Shown in pieces: positions 6,630-55,584 of a stretch of DNA of 64,000 nucleotides. Made by a program: the position numbers and the translations under genes. Each line of letters starts with the position of its first letter. The stretch's first letter is position 1. A model generated the notes under the pieces. It was not told where the DNA came from. It saw nothing but the letters and a program-made list of their open reading frames with translations, and ran no database searches. The stretch is from Cyanobium sp. NIES-981 (lineage in GTDB: Bacteria > Cyanobacteriota > Cyanobacteriia > PCC-6307 > Cyanobiaceae). Where the stretch lies: assembly GCA_945896675.1 (NCBI GenBank), contig CAMDEM010000001.1, forward strand, positions 62,001-126,000. Reading direction: 5' to 3'.

Positions 6630-7972
6630 GCCCAAGAGGGCTTAGCCATTTCATCAGCTCCCAAGAGATTCCAAGCGGTCCAGGCTTCTTGAGGGAGATC
6701 CCTTGGAAATGACTGCTGGGCTTGTCTATGCCGTCTCGTCCTGGACGCGTGCCTAGCCTTAGGCTTGGTCTCTCCTGAGAGACCTGTTCCGTTTGTCTGG
6801 GCTCTTCGTTTTCCTCTTGAATCAGCCCACACAACCGCTTCGGCCATTCAGCCCTGCCTTTCACCACGGCGATTCACTTGGGCCGCAGCCGGAAGATCCT
6901 GTTACCCCTTTTCATGCGTCTCATTCAAGACTAGTAATTGGTCTTGATTGAGTTTTGCCTGGTACTAATGGGATTGCAAGGTTTCGGCTGGAGCGTTTCG
7001 TGTTTTAGTTTTTTTGGTCCTGGGAGCACCAAGCCCTTGGGTGATTCACGCCCATGGATAGTGGCTGAGTTGCTCAAGCATGGGCAGTGATCCCATCAAG
7101 GCGTGACTCTTGCCTTGGCGTGGGCCAGTCAGCCACAAGGCACTCAGACCTCTGCCTTCAACGGTTAGTCGTGGGCACTGAGTTGTCGATGCCCAGTCAT
7201 CGATAGCCAATCGCGACAAGAGCTCGAGGGTGCCCGCATATCCCATACATGTCCCATCACTAGACTATTAATTAGTCGCAGTAGGGATAAGCGGGACGGC
7301 TTATTTTTGGAGGCGCCGGCGCCGCTGTCATGGTGCCCCATGGCGAGTTTTCGGCGCTGGAGTTCCCATCGGGACTCGAAAGCTGTTTCGCCAGGGAATT
7401 CTCTTGCGTACCTGCATCTAAAGCAGTTACGCAAATTTCAAATTTCAATTGCTCACAGGGTTCTTTAGCTTCGCCAGTGGACTGGACAGGCCTGGGTCGG
7501 ACCCTTGGACCCGTGTTTGTTGTCCTCAGCTTCCATTCAGACCACCGCTTGTAATGGGATCCGTGCTTTCTGGAATTTTTTAAAGAGGTTTCGCTCCCTG
7601 CCAGGGCTCAGCAAGAGAACAATGGATTTCATGAAAAATGTAGGTATGCAGTATCTCGGATAAGACTCGTTCATAGTCTCTTATGATTCCAGTATGAGAC
7701 CTGCGGGATTGCCTGTGGCTCTTGCCTGACCGCGATTCATGTGCGCCCTTTGACCCGGGTCGGTCTGAAGCGAGGAGCGGGCGGTGGGTTGTGGGTTGAT
7801 GGGTGCAGGTTTGCGGGCTTCCGGCTTTGCGGGTTGCTGGGGATCGTGACCGGCGAAATCGCTAGCGACGGGTTCCAGGAATAAGACCAGTCAGTGTCCA
7901 GCGAGATCAGGATGAGACTTTAGCTGGGACCGATTAAGAGTCTTGCATGAGCTTGATAAGACTACTGGGGGC
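6630..7972. other. 1.34-kb gene-free interval between convergent gene ends
   Basis: No convincing coding sequence is present on either strand. The longest open frames (7046-7246, 66 codons, and 7165-7434, 89 codons, both minus) overlap each other, have no recognisable domain and no ribosome binding site. The stretch is visibly richer in A+T than its surroundings. It holds several inverted repeats (6669-6708, 6751-6764, 6767-6784, 6925-6947, 7263-7277, 7659-7684), a perfect 12-bp palindrome at 7312-7323, a G-rich run at 7786-7817 and repeated TAAGAC/GAGAC words. It lies 3' of both apcD and the RHH/J-domain gene, so it is not an ordinary promoter region. It may hold small RNAs or be a decayed gene. 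Confidence 0.6.
6669..6784 (+). other. Three successive hairpins downstream of apcD
   Basis: Three inverted repeats follow each other 40-155 nt after the apcD stop. TTCCAAG (6669-6675) pairs with CTTGGAA (6702-6708). GCCTA (6751-6755) pairs with TAGGC (6760-6764). GGTCTCTC (6767-6774) pairs perfectly with GAGAGACC (6777-6784). No T run follows, so this is not a standard intrinsic terminator. It could be an apcD 3' UTR structure or a separate small RNA; the strand is assumed. Confidence 0.35.
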
Positions 7973-9169
7973 TCATCCGTTTCTGTACAGCTCCTTGAGT
8001 AGCTGGTAAGCCTCATTCACTTTTCGCATTTCCTCCTCTGATCCACCGGAATCAGGATGGGTTTTCAGAGCGATGTCCCGATAGGCCTCGCGAATCTCTG
8101 CTAAGGCAAGCCTGTGGCCCGGTGAGGTCGGAAGTTGAAGCAGTTTCAGGGCCCCATGCAATGTCATGGTGTGCTCTAGAGCTTGGAAGGATGTTCCCCT
8201 TTTGCGGGTTCTGAAGCGATGGACGAATCGACGGATCAGAGTTGGCAGGCGTAGCTGCAGGGTGGAGGTACTAAAGGGATCTTCAAGTAAGCCAGCCATA
8301 ACCATCACCTTCTCATAGCTTGCTCCTCCAGGTGGCCAGGTTGGTGCAAAGGCTTCGATTACCGAGCAAGCCAGGGACCATGTGAAGAGACGCCCCTCAC
8401 TCTGGTCGCATTGGGGCCAAATATCCTTAGCAAGCCAGACCATGGCAGCTTCTAAAACAGCCTCGTTGGCAGGTGTGCCGTAGAGCTCAAGCCAGTGGTT
8501 CTTGGCCCTTTCGAGGGCCTGGTTCAAGAGTTCAACCGGTACAGTTGGTAATGGCTCTTGGTTACGGCTACTGTTTTCGCTGGTTGGAGCCAGACTCCTT
8601 TTAATCTGAGCAGTCTGTTTGCGCACAAAACCAGGTAAATCGATTCCGCCGCTCTTTGAGGAGCGTTCAGGTACGGTTGAATCTGCATCCGAACTAGACG
8701 ATTCGAAATCAAGGACTAGGGAACCCGCGGCACCTTTCGCAACTAAGACAAGGGCCCCACGTTCATTGAAATCTGAAGCATCCAAGCCATTGATCTTGGT
8801 TTGTTGGTTTGCTGGCGATACTGAAACGCCAGCGCGCGCGCGAGGGTGAGCTGGTTGGGATTTCGCTGAGGGGCCATCGACTGGCGAGGGGTGGCCATTA
8901 TCTTTTACTTCATCAGAATCTTTTCTGGCGGTTCTTTTCTCTGGTGTATTAAAACTGCCAGCTTCGTTCGTATCATCTAGTCTAAGCCTGCTTTGTTCAC
9001 TTGGGAACTCTTCGCCGAAGAGGTCTTCAGATTCCTCGACGGTGAGTAGTTCTTGAAGGAGTCGTTCAACAATGGCGCCGCGGCTTCTGAGACCCCATTC
9101 CCGTTTGAATTGATCAATTGTGTTGAGGAGGCCTTCGCTGAGTTCCAGGCTTATACGTTTGACCTCCAT
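7973..9169 (-). CDS. Ribbon-helix-helix / J-domain fusion protein
   Basis: The 398-residue product has three parts. Residues 1-46 (VKRISLELSE strand, then two helices ending near RGAIVERLLQELL) look like a ribbon-helix-helix DNA-binding unit of the MetJ/CopG type. Residues about 50-190 are hydrophilic and low in complexity. Residues about 200-330 form an unrecognised globular region rich in Trp and Leu. Residues about 335-396 are a J domain with His371-Pro372-Asp373 in THPDSGG, the motif that stimulates Hsp70 ATPase. An RHH unit fused to a J domain is unusual and suggests a DNA-bound or oligomeric cochaperone; this is inference. The gene starts 2 nt after the DUF3370 gene ends, so the two should be cotranscribed. 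Confidence 0.8.
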   Translation of the reverse strand: MEVKRISLELSEGLLNTIDQFKREWGLRSRGAIVERLLQELLTVEESEDLFGEEFPSEQSRLRLDDTNEAGSFNTPEKRTARKDSDEVKDNGHPSPVDGPSAKSQPAHPRARAGVSVSPANQQTKINGLDASDFNERGALVLVAKGAAGSLVLDFESSSSDADSTVPERSSKSGGIDLPGFVRKQTAQIKRSLAPTSENSSRNQEPLPTVPVELLNQALERAKNHWLELYGTPANEAVLEAAMVWLAKDIWPQCDQSEGRLFTWSLACSVIEAFAPTWPPGGASYEKVMVMAGLLEDPFSTSTLQLRLPTLIRRFVHRFRTRKRGTSFQALEHTMTLHGALKLLQLPTSPGHRLALAEIREAYRDIALKTHPDSGGSEEEMRKVNEAYQLLKELYRNG

Positions 9170-9171
9170 TC

Positions 9172-10944
9172 CTACCGGTCCTGCTGACCGAAGGGAGCTT
9201 GCCGATTACCTTCAACTGTTCGCTGATATTTTTGAACGAGGGCCTGGGATACATTCATTTGATTGTCTCCGCCATTTCCCGGTGGACTATTTACCGGTGG
9301 GGGCGGAGCAGCCGGTAGCCCGGTACCTTGAATGGTGAGAATTCCGAGTTCATCAAGGCCAGGGGTATAGAGATCTGGTGGGGCAACCAACGCACCCAAA
9401 GACCTGGCACTCGATTTCTGTGCTGCCACCCTCGCGATTTCTACCTGACGATCCTGATCCCGAGCCTGGGCCAGTTGGCTAGCTGAAACCACACTCAGTA
9501 GATGTCCTGGGGTGGCGTCAGCTGGATAGACCATAGTCACCTTGACAGGATTACTCACGCCAGGCTTGAGATTGAGACTAGTAAGCGACAGGCTCTCGCC
9601 TGAACGCATGCCTACATGAATGTCTTCAACACCTGATTCGGTCGTGATTTGAATCGATCCACGAAATGCGGTGAATGGCTTTGACCTCCCAAATGCCGTG
9701 GGGTGGCTCATCACCAATTCATAGGGACCTTCTCCCTTGAGACTGAGTGTGACTTCAAAGCGAACCCCGTAGGTGCCCACATTGTCGAGGGAGGAATCCA
9801 CCATGCGGCTTGCAAGGGAATTGACCTGTATCTCCTTGGTCCCGAAGTTGTGTCTGTTGGTGCTGGTGAACGGGACATGCAAAGCCCCCTCGCTGTTGAG
9901 GTCGTGGTTGATCGTTGCTTGATAGGTATCGCCGATGGCAACTCCGCCAACCCTGGAAAATACTTGACGATTGTTGATTTCAGCAATCCGTTTTAGGTAA
10001 ACCCTGCCTGGAGCAAGCTTCGATTGATCAAGGACTCCCACAATGTCGTAGTCACTTTGGGGTTGCCGCGCAGCGACCACAGCCATTTGGAATGGGCCGT
10101 CGCTGCGGCCTCTCAGGAGAGCATTGGCTATACCAAGGGAAGGAAGTTCTGTGCGAAAAAGTACTATTCTGCTTCGCCCTGGAATGGTGATTTCGTCCGT
10201 CAAATTGGAATCCAATTTGCCGCGTAGAAGCTGGGTTGCGGTGGCATCTCCGGGGCCCGTATTCCATGCCCGTATGCCCAGGGGCTTAACGCCCATCAGG
10301 TTGTTGGCGAGATAGGGTGCTTGAAAACTATTTCGTACCGCTCCAGCTTCGAAACGAATGTGAACAGGTTGGTAGCTCGTATTGATTAAAATGAGTCCAA
10401 GGGTTAGTTCGCTCCTGCGGCTACCTGCCCAGCGTTCTCCTTTCGGCGGGATGTACTTGTGGTGGATATGGGCACCAAACTCACCGTTGAACGTATAATC
10501 CGGATTGGCAAGTGGTGCCCCTGTTTCTGCGGCATAGCCCACCCCTGATGATGTATTAATTAGGATTCCAGGCCCTTCCACTTCCTCCGGCTGATTGGAA
10601 TGGAGAACGGGGACCGTATTGAAGCTTCCATTGAGGGGCTTGGCCCTTTGGCCAGCCATCAGGGCCACATAGGCCTGGCTTGAAGGAAGCGGGAGCCCAA
10701 TCCAGCCGATGGCTAGCCAGGAGGCTGGACCTACTAGGCCCGCCAGGTCTTTCCCGATTGTCCAGGCAGATCTTTCCTTGCGATCCCGTCGGATCTCCCT
10801 GGATGGGGCGATCCCCTCGCTGGGCCTGCTGGACTTGGGGCTTCCGGGTCTCCGATCCTTGTTGGGCATGCGCTTCTTAGCCATGGCGGGTTGGAAGGCA
10901 CGAGACTCGGTAGCCCGGTTCAGCTCGCTAGAACCTTTGGGCAT
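9172..10944 (-). CDS. DUF3370-family protein with N-terminal membrane/signal segment
   Basis: The 590-residue product begins with a basic stretch of about 60 residues rich in Lys, Arg and Ser, followed by a hydrophobic segment (about 66-88) that may be a signal anchor. The rest is beta-rich and resembles the cyanobacterial DUF3370 family, which has no known function; the region around VPVLHSNQPEEVEGPG (about 111-126) is typical. The C-terminus has a Pro run (about 546-556) and a polar tail. A later start at Met21 is possible. It is divergent from a 59-aa gene with only 14 nt between start codons, and leads a two-gene operon with the RHH/J-domain gene. An exported or envelope location is inferred. 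Confidence 0.7.
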   Translation of the reverse strand: MPKGSSELNRATESRAFQPAMAKKRMPNKDRRPGSPKSSRPSEGIAPSREIRRDRKERSAWTIGKDLAGLVGPASWLAIGWIGLPLPSSQAYVALMAGQRAKPLNGSFNTVPVLHSNQPEEVEGPGILINTSSGVGYAAETGAPLANPDYTFNGEFGAHIHHKYIPPKGERWAGSRRSELTLGLILINTSYQPVHIRFEAGAVRNSFQAPYLANNLMGVKPLGIRAWNTGPGDATATQLLRGKLDSNLTDEITIPGRSRIVLFRTELPSLGIANALLRGRSDGPFQMAVVAARQPQSDYDIVGVLDQSKLAPGRVYLKRIAEINNRQVFSRVGGVAIGDTYQATINHDLNSEGALHVPFTSTNRHNFGTKEIQVNSLASRMVDSSLDNVGTYGVRFEVTLSLKGEGPYELVMSHPTAFGRSKPFTAFRGSIQITTESGVEDIHVGMRSGESLSLTSLNLKPGVSNPVKVTMVYPADATPGHLLSVVSASQLAQARDQDRQVEIARVAAQKSSARSLGALVAPPDLYTPGLDELGILTIQGTGLPAAPPPPVNSPPGNGGDNQMNVSQALVQKYQRTVEGNRQAPFGQQDR

Positions 10945-52309: not shown

Positions 52310-53278
52310 TTAGGCCCCCTGGGCCAGTTCTTCGAGCCTGCGGTAGAGGGCCACCTCCGCCTCACTGAGCTCCTCGGGCACAACGATCTTGATTTCAACG
52401 AGCTGGTCGCCGCGCTGCTCGGACCACTCCAAACCACGACCCCGTAGGCGGAGTAGGCGACCGCTGGAGGAACCCGCTGGAACGGTCATTTTCACCGGAC
52501 CCCGCAGGGTCGGCACGACAACGCCACAGCCCAGGGCAGCCTCAGCCGGCGTCAGTTCCAACTTGTAGAGAATGCGCAGCCCATCAACCCGAAGCCCGTC
52601 GGCGGTCCGCACCCGCAGCTGTAAGAAATGATCAGCTCCTCCGGCGGCCACACCTTCCAATCTCAATCGCCAGCCATCCCCGGCAAAGGGCGGGGTCCAC
52701 ACCTCAATGCAGGTGCCATTGGCGAGCTCGAGCTCGATGCGCTCACCTTGGAGGGCCTGCTCAGGCGTGAGCTCCACCACCGATTCCAAATCGGTGGTGG
52801 CCGCCACTGGCGGCGGGGCGGCTGGTGCCGTTGCCACCTGGCCAGCGGTGGGGCCAACCTCAACCCGCTCCCTCACCGGCTCCCTAACGCGATCCGGAAC
52901 CCGATCCGGTTCATAGACGCTCTCGCGCTCCCGGCGCTTGGCCCGGCGGTCGCCAAACAATTCGGCGAGGTAGTCCTCAAAGTCGGGAAAGCCCCTGGCG
53001 AAGGGATCACCATCGGGGCCGGCGACTGCACCGCCTGGATCCTCTCCATTGGCTGCCTCCCAAAGCTGCCTTTTGAGCGGGTCAGAGAGCACCGCATAGG
53101 CCTCATTCACCAACTTGAATTGGTCTTCAGCCCTCGGGTCGTTGGCGTTGAGATCGGGATGCCAGCGCCGGGCCTGGGTTCGAAAGGCCCGCTTCAAGCT
53201 TGTGCCATCGGCACCGGGGGAAAGCCCCAGCACCGACCAGTAATCCTGGCTCGTTGAACTGCGGGTCACAGACGTCAC
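52310..53278 (-). CDS. J-domain protein (DnaJ, type II) paired with DnaK3
   Basis: The 322-residue product has an N-terminal J domain (about 10-75) with His40-Pro41-Asp42, a charged linker with a Glu/Arg/Pro tract (about 113-145) and the C-terminal substrate-binding fold (about 165-305, TPEQALQGERIELEL and RGPVKMTVPAGSSSGRLL). It has no zinc-finger domain. It should stimulate the ATPase of the DnaK encoded upstream. The start is GTG, overlapping the dnaK stop as GTGA. Such pairs in cyanobacteria have been called dnaJ/dnaK3. Confidence 0.92.
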   Translation of the reverse strand: MTSVTRSSTSQDYWSVLGLSPGADGTSLKRAFRTQARRWHPDLNANDPRAEDQFKLVNEAYAVLSDPLKRQLWEAANGEDPGGAVAGPDGDPFARGFPDFEDYLAELFGDRRAKRRERESVYEPDRVPDRVREPVRERVEVGPTAGQVATAPAAPPPVAATTDLESVVELTPEQALQGERIELELANGTCIEVWTPPFAGDGWRLRLEGVAAGGADHFLQLRVRTADGLRVDGLRILYKLELTPAEAALGCGVVVPTLRGPVKMTVPAGSSSGRLLRLRGRGLEWSEQRGDQLVEIKIVVPEELSEAEVALYRRLEELAQGA

Positions 53279-55527
53279 CTGTCGCCCCAGGGGTCGTCAT
53301 CCCGGTAGGGGGTTGACTTGGAGGCGGGCCTTGGCCGCTCAGGCGTTACACCGTCCTGATCCCAGCGGCCTGCCGCCGGTTCGCGCCGCAGGTCTTGGGC
53401 TGGGTCGCTCCACCCTTGGGAGGCCCTATCCATTGGCCTATCACTTGACCTGTCGATCGCTGGAGTTCGGCCGTAGGTATCCCGCCCGGTACCACTGCGT
53501 TCGTAGCTATTGCGCTCAAAACCACTGCGCTCGTAGCTGTTGCGGCGATCGAACTCACCGCCAAAGCGTGGGGGCGGCATGGACCAGGGATCATTGCCCG
53601 GACGATTCCAGTCATCCCAGTCGTCGTCGGCGAACAATTCGTCTTTCAGGGAGCCCAGGGTGTTTTTCAGGCCCTGCAGGGGGCCTTGCTCAGAACGCCG
53701 TTCCGTCATCAGCCGGCGGTTGAGGCCAAACAGGGCTTCCTGCAATTGGCTGACCGCCATGTCCAGATCCGCCAGGTCGTTTTCGGCCTTGGAGTTGAGG
53801 GCCAGGAGGTCTTGAACCTCCCGCACCGCCATTTCGACGGAGCGCTGTTGGCGCTCGGCCCCATAGGGACCCAGTTCAAGGGAGGCATCCCGCAGGCGGC
53901 GCTCGGCCTGGGCCACCAGGGTTTGCGCCCGGTTGCTGCGGTCGACCTCGGCCCGTTTGCGGCGGTCTTCGGTGGCTTTCTGTTCCGCCTCCTGGAGCAA
54001 CTGGGTGATCTCTTCTTCGCTGAGGTTGGAGCCCCCTTGGATCGTGACGCTCTGTTGTCGCCCGGTGGTGCGATCGGTGGCGGAAACCTGCAGTAGGCCA
54101 TTGGCATCGATGTCGAAGGACACCTGCACCTGCGGTACGCCCCGGGGGGCCGGGGGAATGCCCGAGAGGCGGAAGCGACCCAGCGACTTGTTGCCCTCCG
54201 TCATCTGGCGCTCCCCCTGGAGCACATGGATCTCTACGGAGTTTTGGTTGGGCTCTGAGGTACTGAAGAGGTCGCTTTTGCGAACTGGAATTGACGTGTT
54301 GCGGGGGATCAAGACCTTCATCACCCCGCCAATGGTTTCCAAACCAAGGGATAGGGGGGTGACGTCATTGAGCATCAGGTCGCGCAGCTCACCGGTGAGA
54401 ATCCCGGCTTGCACGGCTGCGCCGATGGCGACCACCTCATCGGGGTTCACCGATTGGCAAGGTTCCAAGGGAATCAAGGTGCGCACCATCTCCTGAACCA
54501 TGGGCATGCGGCTCGAGCCGCCCACCAGCACCACGTCGTCGATGTCATCGGCTGCCAGGCCCGAATCCCGCAGGGCCCTTTGAACCGGTCTCAGCAGCCG
54601 ATCCAGCAGATCTGGACAGAGGGATTCAAAGGTTCGGCGCTCGAGGCTGGTTTCGATATGCAGGGGGCCATCAGGTCCCGTGGCTATGAAGGGAAGGGAG
54701 ATGGGGGTGCTGAGCACACCCGAGAGCTCCTGCTTGGCCTTCTCCGAGGCCTCGGTCAGGCGCTGCAGGGCTTGGCGGTCGCGACGCAGGTCGATGGCGT
54801 TCTCGGCCTGGAAAGCATCGGCTAACCAATCGACAATGCGCCGGTCCCAGTCGTTGCCCCCCAGCTGGGTGTCTCCGCTGGTGGCTTTGACATCGAACAC
54901 CCCCTGGGCGATACGCAGGATCGAAACGTCAAAGGTTCCTCCGCCCAGGTCGAACACCAGCACCCGCTTGACGCTGCTGCGGTCAAAGCCATATGCCAGG
55001 GCAGCCGCGGTGGGTTCGTTGAGGATCCGCTCCACCTCAAGGCCGGCTAGGCGACCCGCATCCCTGGTGGCCTGGCGCTGGGCATCATTGAAGTAGGCGG
55101 GAACTGTGATGACCGCAGCCTCCACCGGCTCCCCGAGGTAGGTGGAGGCATCGTCCACCAGCTTGCGCAGGATGCTCGCGACCAACTCCTCTGGGGCGTA
55201 TTCCCGTTCCGTGGCTGGGCATACAACCCGCACGTTGCCCTGGTCATTGGCCCGAACCGTGTAGGGCACCGAAAGGCTGCTGTCTTCAAGCTCGTCCCAT
55301 TGGCGCCCCACAAACCGCTTCAAGTTGGCAAAGGTGTTGCGGGGGTTCAACACGAGTTGGCGCCGCGCCAACTGACCCACCAGCAACTCCTGTTCGCGGT
55401 TGAAGCCCACAACCGAGGCGGTGGTGCGCGTTCCTTCGGCACTGGCAATCACCTGGGGACGTCCCCCCTCAAGCACAGCCACCACAGAGTTTGTGGTGCC
55501 TAGGTCGATTCCAACTATTCGACCCAT
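53275..55527 (-). CDS. dnaK3: DnaK-type chaperone with long C-terminal tail (DnaK3-like)
   Basis: From ATG 55527 the product is 750 residues. The ATPase part (about 1-370) has GRIVGIDLGTTNSVVAV, LVFDLGGGTFDVSI and VLVGGSSRMP; the peptide-binding part (about 380-500) has NDVTPLSLGLETIGG. After the helical lid (to about 610) comes a tail of about 140 residues: an acidic DDDWDDW stretch, two copies of an SYERSG unit (663-679), then Arg/Asp/Ser-rich sequence ending DDDPWGD. Length and tail match cyanobacterial DnaK3, which is essential and in part membrane-associated. The frame extends 13 codons further up to 55566. The gene is divergent from pstC. Confidence 0.93.
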   Translation of the reverse strand: MGRIVGIDLGTTNSVVAVLEGGRPQVIASAEGTRTTASVVGFNREQELLVGQLARRQLVLNPRNTFANLKRFVGRQWDELEDSSLSVPYTVRANDQGNVRVVCPATEREYAPEELVASILRKLVDDASTYLGEPVEAAVITVPAYFNDAQRQATRDAGRLAGLEVERILNEPTAAALAYGFDRSSVKRVLVFDLGGGTFDVSILRIAQGVFDVKATSGDTQLGGNDWDRRIVDWLADAFQAENAIDLRRDRQALQRLTEASEKAKQELSGVLSTPISLPFIATGPDGPLHIETSLERRTFESLCPDLLDRLLRPVQRALRDSGLAADDIDDVVLVGGSSRMPMVQEMVRTLIPLEPCQSVNPDEVVAIGAAVQAGILTGELRDLMLNDVTPLSLGLETIGGVMKVLIPRNTSIPVRKSDLFSTSEPNQNSVEIHVLQGERQMTEGNKSLGRFRLSGIPPAPRGVPQVQVSFDIDANGLLQVSATDRTTGRQQSVTIQGGSNLSEEEITQLLQEAEQKATEDRRKRAEVDRSNRAQTLVAQAERRLRDASLELGPYGAERQQRSVEMAVREVQDLLALNSKAENDLADLDMAVSQLQEALFGLNRRLMTERRSEQGPLQGLKNTLGSLKDELFADDDWDDWNRPGNDPWSMPPPRFGGEFDRRNSYERSGFERNSYERSGTGRDTYGRTPAIDRSSDRPMDRASQGWSDPAQDLRREPAAGRWDQDGVTPERPRPASKSTPYRDDDPWGDR
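53491..53544. repeat. Near-exact 24-bp direct repeat in the dnaK3 tail
   Basis: A 24-bp unit at 53491-53514 recurs at 53521-53544 with two mismatches (30-bp period). It encodes the repeated NSYERSG segment of the C-terminal tail. It suggests that the disordered tail grew by duplication. Confidence 0.85.
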
Positions 55528-55584
55528 GGATGCCGCTGCCCCAGCCAACAGGCGTTTGAAACCCAAAAATACTGGGCGCCGTGC

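Follow-up and report, generated by a model that had tools for sequence, protein, structure and literature searches.

Terminus organization, dimer resolution and chaperone recruitment to DNA are each represented by described systems, among which we looked for relatives of an unusual locus in Cyanobium sp. NIES-981. MatP is a ribbon-helix-helix (RHH) protein without a J domain, and its matS sites are dispersed over the Ter macrodomain. XerS, XerH and XerA are recombination systems that work with a single recombinase, and the large T antigens of simian virus 40 (SV40) and polyoma virus join a J domain to a DNA-binding module. To our knowledge, no bacterial system for terminus function or segregation includes a chaperone. 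The locus described here lies in a 64,000-nucleotide stretch (GenBank assembly GCA_945896675.1, contig CAMDEM010000001.1, positions 62,001 to 126,000 of the forward strand; hereafter the window), where the gene for a 398-residue protein with an N-terminal RHH and a C-terminal J domain (RHH-J; 7973..9169, minus strand, ATG start) adjoins an array of RAGACY words and a dif-like palindrome. Protein, array and palindrome together suggest that chromosomes are completed or separated here by a system so far unrecognised. Our preferred reading, to which we give a probability of roughly 55%, is that RHH-J serves the Cyanobiaceae as an Hsp70 co-chaperone that binds the terminus, its RHH domain sitting on the RAGACY array and its J domain recruiting DnaK to a terminus or dif-like complex. 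RHH-J would bring an Hsp70 co-chaperone to the terminus of the chromosome, and tied to it the family of Prochlorococcus and marine Synechococcus has a candidate dif-like site; where and how Cyanobiaceae chromosomes end becomes testable at one 1-kb locus.

Comparison with described systems

RHH-J is like MatP in being an RHH protein that would act at the replication terminus, and differs in its candidate sites, RAGACY being focused within about 1 kb (-5 to +6 kb covered) and paired sites not being enriched genome-wide. The MatP Pfam family gave no match at E ≤ 1 to the window protein and was absent from the 14 families matched by 51 family members; RHH-J would therefore work in part as MatP does but is not a member of MatP. 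Caulobacter ZapT is a terminus-binding protein of a bacterium without MatP, a role that RHH-J would share, and we know of no J domain in it. The likeness to dif/Xer lies in a nearly single-copy near-palindrome, about 28 bp long and close to the skew switch, and in one shared tyrosine recombinase. The palindrome sequence appears unlike the known dif consensus, and the systems also differ in that FtsK was not found over cut-off in 21 family genomes.

On the chaperone side, the J domains of the SV40 and polyoma large T antigens are among the nearest PDB matches of RHH-J, whereas these are viral replication proteins and no common origin is implied. CbpA, a nucleoid J protein of E. coli, binds DNA as RHH-J is predicted to do, and RHH-J differs from it in its RHH domain and its defined locus. 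Myxococcus CdbA is an RHH nucleoid protein genetically tied to PilZ-DnaK chaperones (PMC10313047), so that RHH and DnaK-type chaperone reside in separate proteins, whereas RHH-J carries RHH and J in one chain. The original prediction, which knew of no bacterial system recruiting Hsp70 to DNA through an RHH domain, holds, within the literature searched, for the two domains in one chain only, CbpA being a DNA-binding J protein and CdbA an RHH protein tied to DnaK chaperones. Kono 2011 (PMC3025954) predicted dif in 0/5 cyanobacteria, and a later genome paper (PMC6416890) has none predicted. In our literature search, confined mostly to papers outside subscription, neither a cyanobacterial dif site nor a dif or terminus protein of the Cyanobiaceae came up, nor did a description of the RHH-J protein or the palindrome site, nor a paper joining RHH and J domain that describes RHH-J. 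A paper on Prochlorococcus P9303_05031 (PMC7734504) was set aside, as it concerns a GroES-like protein.

Architecture and distribution of RHH-J

The RHH domain occupies residues 5-43 (9041..9157, minus strand). Residues 5-42 match Pfam RHH_1 with E 0.0072 and 16.7 bits, below the cut-off of 20.5, so the call is weak for the window protein taken singly. RHH_1 is matched at E ≤ 1 by 36 of 51 family sequences (best 9.9e-6), and when 22 N-termini are combined into a profile, its best PDB matches are NikR (2bj1, E 0.0033) and CopG (2cpg, E 0.0064). AlphaFold2, run with the 51 sequences, models helices at 12-25 and 30-43 with block predicted local distance difference test (pLDDT) values of 86-92; because the model is a monomer, the beta ribbon is not formed in it and the strand is inferred. 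By its predicted fold, strand-helix-helix over about 40 residues, RHH-J is a member of the RHH superfamily. The domain was seen in 80/80 loci (L031-L110, the best 80 of 365 relatives) fetched by a contig scan whose patterns were drawn solely from the middle and J parts, and in 30/30 loci (L111-L140) fetched with an RHH-containing profile, some genomes being repeated; the RHH profile behind both counts was built partly from those same loci. The MetJ/CopG-like N-terminus of the original prediction is borne out at family level, and its proposed AlphaFold check of both ends returned RHH helices and a J domain modelled with confidence. The RHH may bind DNA in a sequence-specific manner; candidate sites are described below.

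The J domain (residues 337-397, HPD at 371-373; 7979..8161, minus strand) had likewise been recognised correctly. Pfam DnaJ matches residues 356-392 over cut-off (E 8.4e-8) and 50 of the 51 family sequences; DnaJ and RHH_1 are the only Pfam matches of the window protein. The nearest PDB profile match is Tim14 (E 1.7e-5), block pLDDT is 83-97 from residue 341 onward, and HPD is kept in 79 of the 80 loci L031-L110, the remaining one being cut by a contig end. In an alignment of 21 sequences R360 and Y363 are invariant and position 364 is R or K, which, by alignment to E. coli DnaJ, would be the DnaK-facing arginine, tyrosine and basic residue of helix II. RHH-J is a class C J-domain protein, with HPD, no zinc finger and, by eye, no G/F region, and it may stimulate an Hsp70 such as DnaK.

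Between the RHH helices and the J domain, the AlphaFold2 model places a low-confidence linker and a confident helical middle domain. The linker, which we read as disordered, carries two conserved motifs, ExxALVL (residues 136-142; 8744..8764, minus strand; alignment of 21) and IDLPGFV (residues 176-182; 8624..8644, minus strand; alignment of 51), the latter with I176, L178, P179, G180 and F181 invariant in the 51 aligned sequences; both are likely partner-binding motifs. The family-specific middle domain (residues 208-321; 8207..8548, minus strand) ends in a conserved Arg-rich helix, has block pLDDT 91-97 over 211-320 (mean 88 when modelled alone), and found no PDB match at E ≤ 0.001 by Foldseek with the full model or the domain alone. 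This domain is new.

Among 291 cyanobacterial genomes sampled, all 36 of the Cyanobiaceae contain a relative that covers most of the profile (E ~1e-123 or better), and the middle domain was found in 36/36 Cyanobiaceae versus 0/255 other cyanobacteria. Named contigs with RHH-J are mostly Cyanobium, Synechococcus, Vulcanococcus, Prochlorococcus or unnamed cyanobacteria. In another draw of 37 family genomes, which included the window's own, the protein was found in 25, in one of them truncated where the contig stops, and a further two genomes hold the N-terminus only, at a contig end. Viral contigs searched for relatives gave one match, limited to the J domain. A contig titled as a Bifidobacterium breve metagenome-assembled genome (L093, CALPNT020000153.1) has a cyanobacterial RHH-J locus and is mislabelled or contaminated. 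A 60-residue open frame elsewhere (L027, G009:C12:15411-15539) encodes an RHH like that of RHH-J with no J part, either a standalone RHH or a broken gene.

The RAGACY array and the palindrome

In the window, RHH-J faces a gap between convergent genes (6630..7972, delimited by open reading frames (ORFs) and locus comparison) that holds both array and palindrome. The original prediction had singled out the AAGACT words just downstream of the gene as candidate binding sites. Over the whole window AAGACT is not above chance (11 against a mean of 15.6); in the first 650 nt past the 3' end of the gene it occurs in 50 of 74 regions, with 19.1 expected (maximum 24 in 20 shuffles), and the words are thus real and conserved. 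The general word RAGACY occurs 321 times where 105 are expected, and none of 30 shuffles gave more than 121; since the loci are related, the array counts are not independent. Same-strand pairs at 11-12 bp number 24 against 0.2 expected, and further peaks at 23-24 bp (16) and 35 bp (8) make up a 12-bp step, which a 32-bp spacing (6 pairs) does not suit. Opposite-strand pairs peak at 13, 25 and -34 bp (14, 9 and 8 pairs, counts without shuffle control). The density of RAGACY exceeds expectation 1.9-4.0 times in the four bins that cover 0-1000 nt past the stop, and is 0.4-1.3 times expectation in the remaining 40 bins from -5000 to +6000, and 32 of 37 pairs at 11-12 bp fall 0-1250 nt past the stop. 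Other gap sequence looks unalike by eye among eight loci. In high-light (HL) Prochlorococcus, for which we take the genus g18 with its 1.6-1.7 Mb genomes, two blocks stand out in the alignment, a composite in which one word is joined by two relaxed inverse words (+13, +25). What began as single words thus became a conserved array with a 12-bp step over about 1 kb adjoining the gene, to which binding is predicted.

The window's own sites form a cluster adjoining the gene (7883..7963; plus strand at 7883, 7914 and 7958, minus at 7939, with 7939/7914 a 25-bp pair), a second cluster (7662..7701; plus at 7662 and 7696, minus at 7675, with 7675/7662 a 13-bp pair) and sites past the palindrome (6767..6945; plus at 6779 and 6927, minus at 6767 and 6940, with 6940/6927 a 13-bp pair).

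The dif-like palindrome, GCGTACCTG-N9-CAGTTACGC, lies at 7406..7432 (arms to 7404-7434) and was recognised by locus and genome comparison. The gap consensus is GCGTAYCTG-N9-CAGRTACGC with fixed spacing, found with at most 2 mismatches in 71 of the 73 loci of L031-L110 that have at least 400 nt (seven shorter loci dropped); the two others have only 439 and 552 nt up to the contig end. With repeated genomes included, it is present in 91 of 108 regions of at least 300 nt. Among these 91 copies CTG...CAG and the outermost G-C pair are invariant, the sixth arm position changes in a compensatory manner (C-G 33, T-A 24, A-T 13), and the spacer is conserved and asymmetric. Of the 17 regions without it, six stop early at the end of their contig (300-552 nt) and 11 belong to genus g18, where 11/11 loci have a diverged CTG-N9-CAG (GTACTG...CAGTAC in nine, close variants in two). 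In 23 of 26 whole genomes the palindrome adjoins RHH-J, with 0-1 mismatch in 20 and 2 in G212, G303 and G309; in the other three, all g18, the main form is absent. The sole palindrome with 0-1 mismatch away from RHH-J is in G075. Palindromes with 2 mismatches elsewhere in 10 of the 26 genomes are background, because a reversed control matches in 14 of 26. The palindrome is thus nearly single-copy per genome. As a general cyanobacterial dif it was rejected, with at most 1 mismatch in 10/173 non-family genomes versus 12/173 for the reversed control.

The second G075 palindrome (759808-759834; L209, ~9809-9835) lies far from the terminus. Close to it are a glyQ-like ORF and ORFs that match no Pfam family, and a tyrosine recombinase match is found some 7 kb off; this is perhaps a mobile element that carries or has used a dif-like site.

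Position at the replication terminus

With dnaN as the origin proxy in cyanobacteria, RHH-J lies 0.33-0.50 of the circle from the origin in all 25 single-contig family genomes at hand (mean 0.471; at least 0.45 in 22), six of the genome lengths being rounded. Strand skew switches at the locus. In 20 stretches sampled from each of G025 and G177, TA skew is positive in 10/10 on one side and negative on the other in 9/10 (G025) and 10/10 (G177), and GC skew is positive in 9/10 before the gene and in 2/10 (G025) and 0/10 (G177) after it. The cumulative keto skew reaches its maximum (within 120 kb) at a distance from the palindrome of 8 kb in G025, 17 kb in G177 and 14 kb in G018, and the single GC and TA cumulative maxima lie 8-44 kb from it. 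Genomes with an off-centre gene are the most informative. In G271 (0.332 of the circle) the keto skew changes sign at 770-840 kb, at the gene (801 kb) and not at the midpoint (1205 kb), and past the gene it is negative or near zero, with stretches at 520 and 640 kb negative too; in G003 (0.385), where skew is weak, it fades at 2550-2710 kb, at the gene (2593 kb) and not at the antipode (2963 kb), and is slightly positive at 2970 and 3070 kb. The terminus therefore tracks the locus clearly in G271 and weakly in G003. The RHH-J locus is at the replication terminus, and the palindrome is dif-like by position, a single near-palindrome of about 28 bp at the skew switch, and not yet by function. Terminus location, palindrome and middle domain had all escaped the original prediction.

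Recombinase, FtsK and DnaK

A palindrome of this kind may be an Xer recombination site, dif. Tyrosine recombinase matches occur in 34/34 genomes, with exactly one match in nine (six of them g18), and one ortholog is common to all 21 genomes compared. This divergent shared recombinase (G000:C5, L241 820-2082, plus strand; ortholog comparison) is 52-60% identical to that of G025 over ~370-415 residues, and its best NCBIfam match is XerS with E 0.005, far under cut-off; it is a candidate for the Xer of the family. Acting on the near-palindrome, it would by analogy resemble the XerS, XerH or XerA systems. FtsK was over cut-off in 0 of 21 family genomes, with weak sub-cut-off matches in G003 and G032, and in 8 of 14 control genomes. 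Three Hsp70 matches are present in the window's draft genome. Within the window, about 43 kb from RHH-J, a DnaK gene is immediately followed by a DnaJ-like one (52310-55566, minus strand).

A proposed mechanism and its alternatives

The domains and their conservation, the array, the palindrome, their linkage and their location near the skew switch are established, and the mechanism that we propose builds on them. RHH dimers would bind RAGACY words in 12-bp steps and both orientations over about 1 kb 3' of the gene, and the filled array would build a nucleoprotein complex around the palindrome at the terminus. The family-specific domain and the two linker motifs may hold partners, while the C-terminal J domain would bring DnaK to the terminus. 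DnaK could then use ATP to remodel or dismantle the terminus assembly, be it arriving replisomes, the bound complex or an Xer-type synapse on the palindrome. That RHH-J binds the array is suggested by position, shared range, a periodicity suited to RHH and the conserved basic RHH residues; the engagement of DnaK and the identity of the palindrome with dif are predicted alongside. A bolder version, which we offer as a tentative possibility, is that the Cyanobiaceae, having lost or never had FtsK, finish their chromosomes by an Hsp70-driven machine in which RHH-J fills the array around a single-recombinase dif and remodelling by DnaK licenses dimer resolution or fork disassembly.

Several observations weigh against a terminus-binding co-chaperone. 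Ten of the 37 family genomes lack the protein or hold fragments of other kinds; most are incomplete drafts (nine are 71-90% complete, including G036 at 90%), the exception being G023, a 99%-complete draft, and a profile search found no middle domain in the 12 genomes without full RHH-J, G023 included. The window locus has no same-strand 12-bp pair, its three RAGACY pairs being of the 13/25 kind, and exact 12-bp pairs are not enriched genome-wide (84 across 16 genomes, where the reversed control gives 184), although the terminus locus accounts for 8 of the 84, found in six of these genomes. No RAGACY lies within 700 nt of the second G075 palindrome, so that a palindrome can exist apart from an array, and the GC skew of G003, taken singly, shows no switch at the gene. 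Within the RHH, 37 of 51 sequences carry an acidic residue at the outward-facing strand position 9, which is unusual in a base-reading RHH, and changes in the strand show no clear co-variation with the word (six loci that have Lys at position 9 versus eight of similar GC; p 0.09), a result neither for nor against a link between RHH and array.

The acidic strand and the lack of significant co-variation suit best an alternative that we consider unlikely but serious, namely that the RHH merely dimerises the co-chaperone, as RHH folds can do, that array and palindrome belong to other proteins such as an Xer-like recombinase or an unknown terminus factor, and that the terminus is simply a stable place for a gene. 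Conserved residues of the domain speak for DNA instead: in 51 sequences G26, R30 and G31 are invariant, R28 is kept in 50 and R5 in 44, and the place of R28, R30 and G31 faces the backbone in RHH-DNA complexes. Dimerisation also fits poorly with a shared range, the middle domain being confined to the family and the palindrome falling to control level outside it, and with the persistence of RHH-J beside the array while the first recognised gene past the array varies by clade.

A replication fork trap like Tus-ter or RTP, cleared by the J domain, would account for the position near the skew switch, in off-centre G271 too. Tus-ter sites have a polar layout, whereas the window and the inspected loci have both site orientations on each side, and a palindrome with a conserved asymmetric spacer better suits recombination; we regard a trap as improbable. 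Autorepression is common among RHH proteins and DnaK feedback loops exist, from which one could picture RHH-J as an autoregulated heat-shock regulator of the HspR/DnaK type with the words as operator. An operator would be misplaced here, the sites lying 3' of the gene between convergent genes, where a promoter is not expected; RAGACY is not enriched upstream (bins to -5000), and a DUF3370 gene is the next recognised upstream gene in 65 of 80 loci, mostly at most 55 nt away, which leaves such a regulator quite improbable. Palindrome and words as RNA-level features of the convergent genes, a terminator or small RNA, are very improbable, for although a hairpin is possible and arm changes are compensatory, a T5 run lies within 15 nt on either strand in just 2 of 91 palindromes (by which a terminator was rejected), the window gap 6630..7972 matches no Rfam family, and the sequence is fixed and near single copy per genome.

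Gene neighbourhood

In the window, the DUF3370 gene (9172..10944, minus strand; Pfam) lies directly upstream of RHH-J, 2 nt apart. Nine Prochlorococcus loci have a different order, Apa, RHH-J and another gene, with DUF3370 not adjoining; RHH-J is therefore not dependent on DUF3370, which probably stands outside the RHH-J system. On the downstream side, where neighbours were recognised only if related to a window gene, apc is convergent with RHH-J in all 54 loci in which it is the first recognised gene, as is the Prochlorococcus neighbour in 9/9 loci; in four loci the first recognised gene is co-directional and further away. The gaps from RHH-J to the first recognised downstream gene range from about 0.6 to 4 kb.
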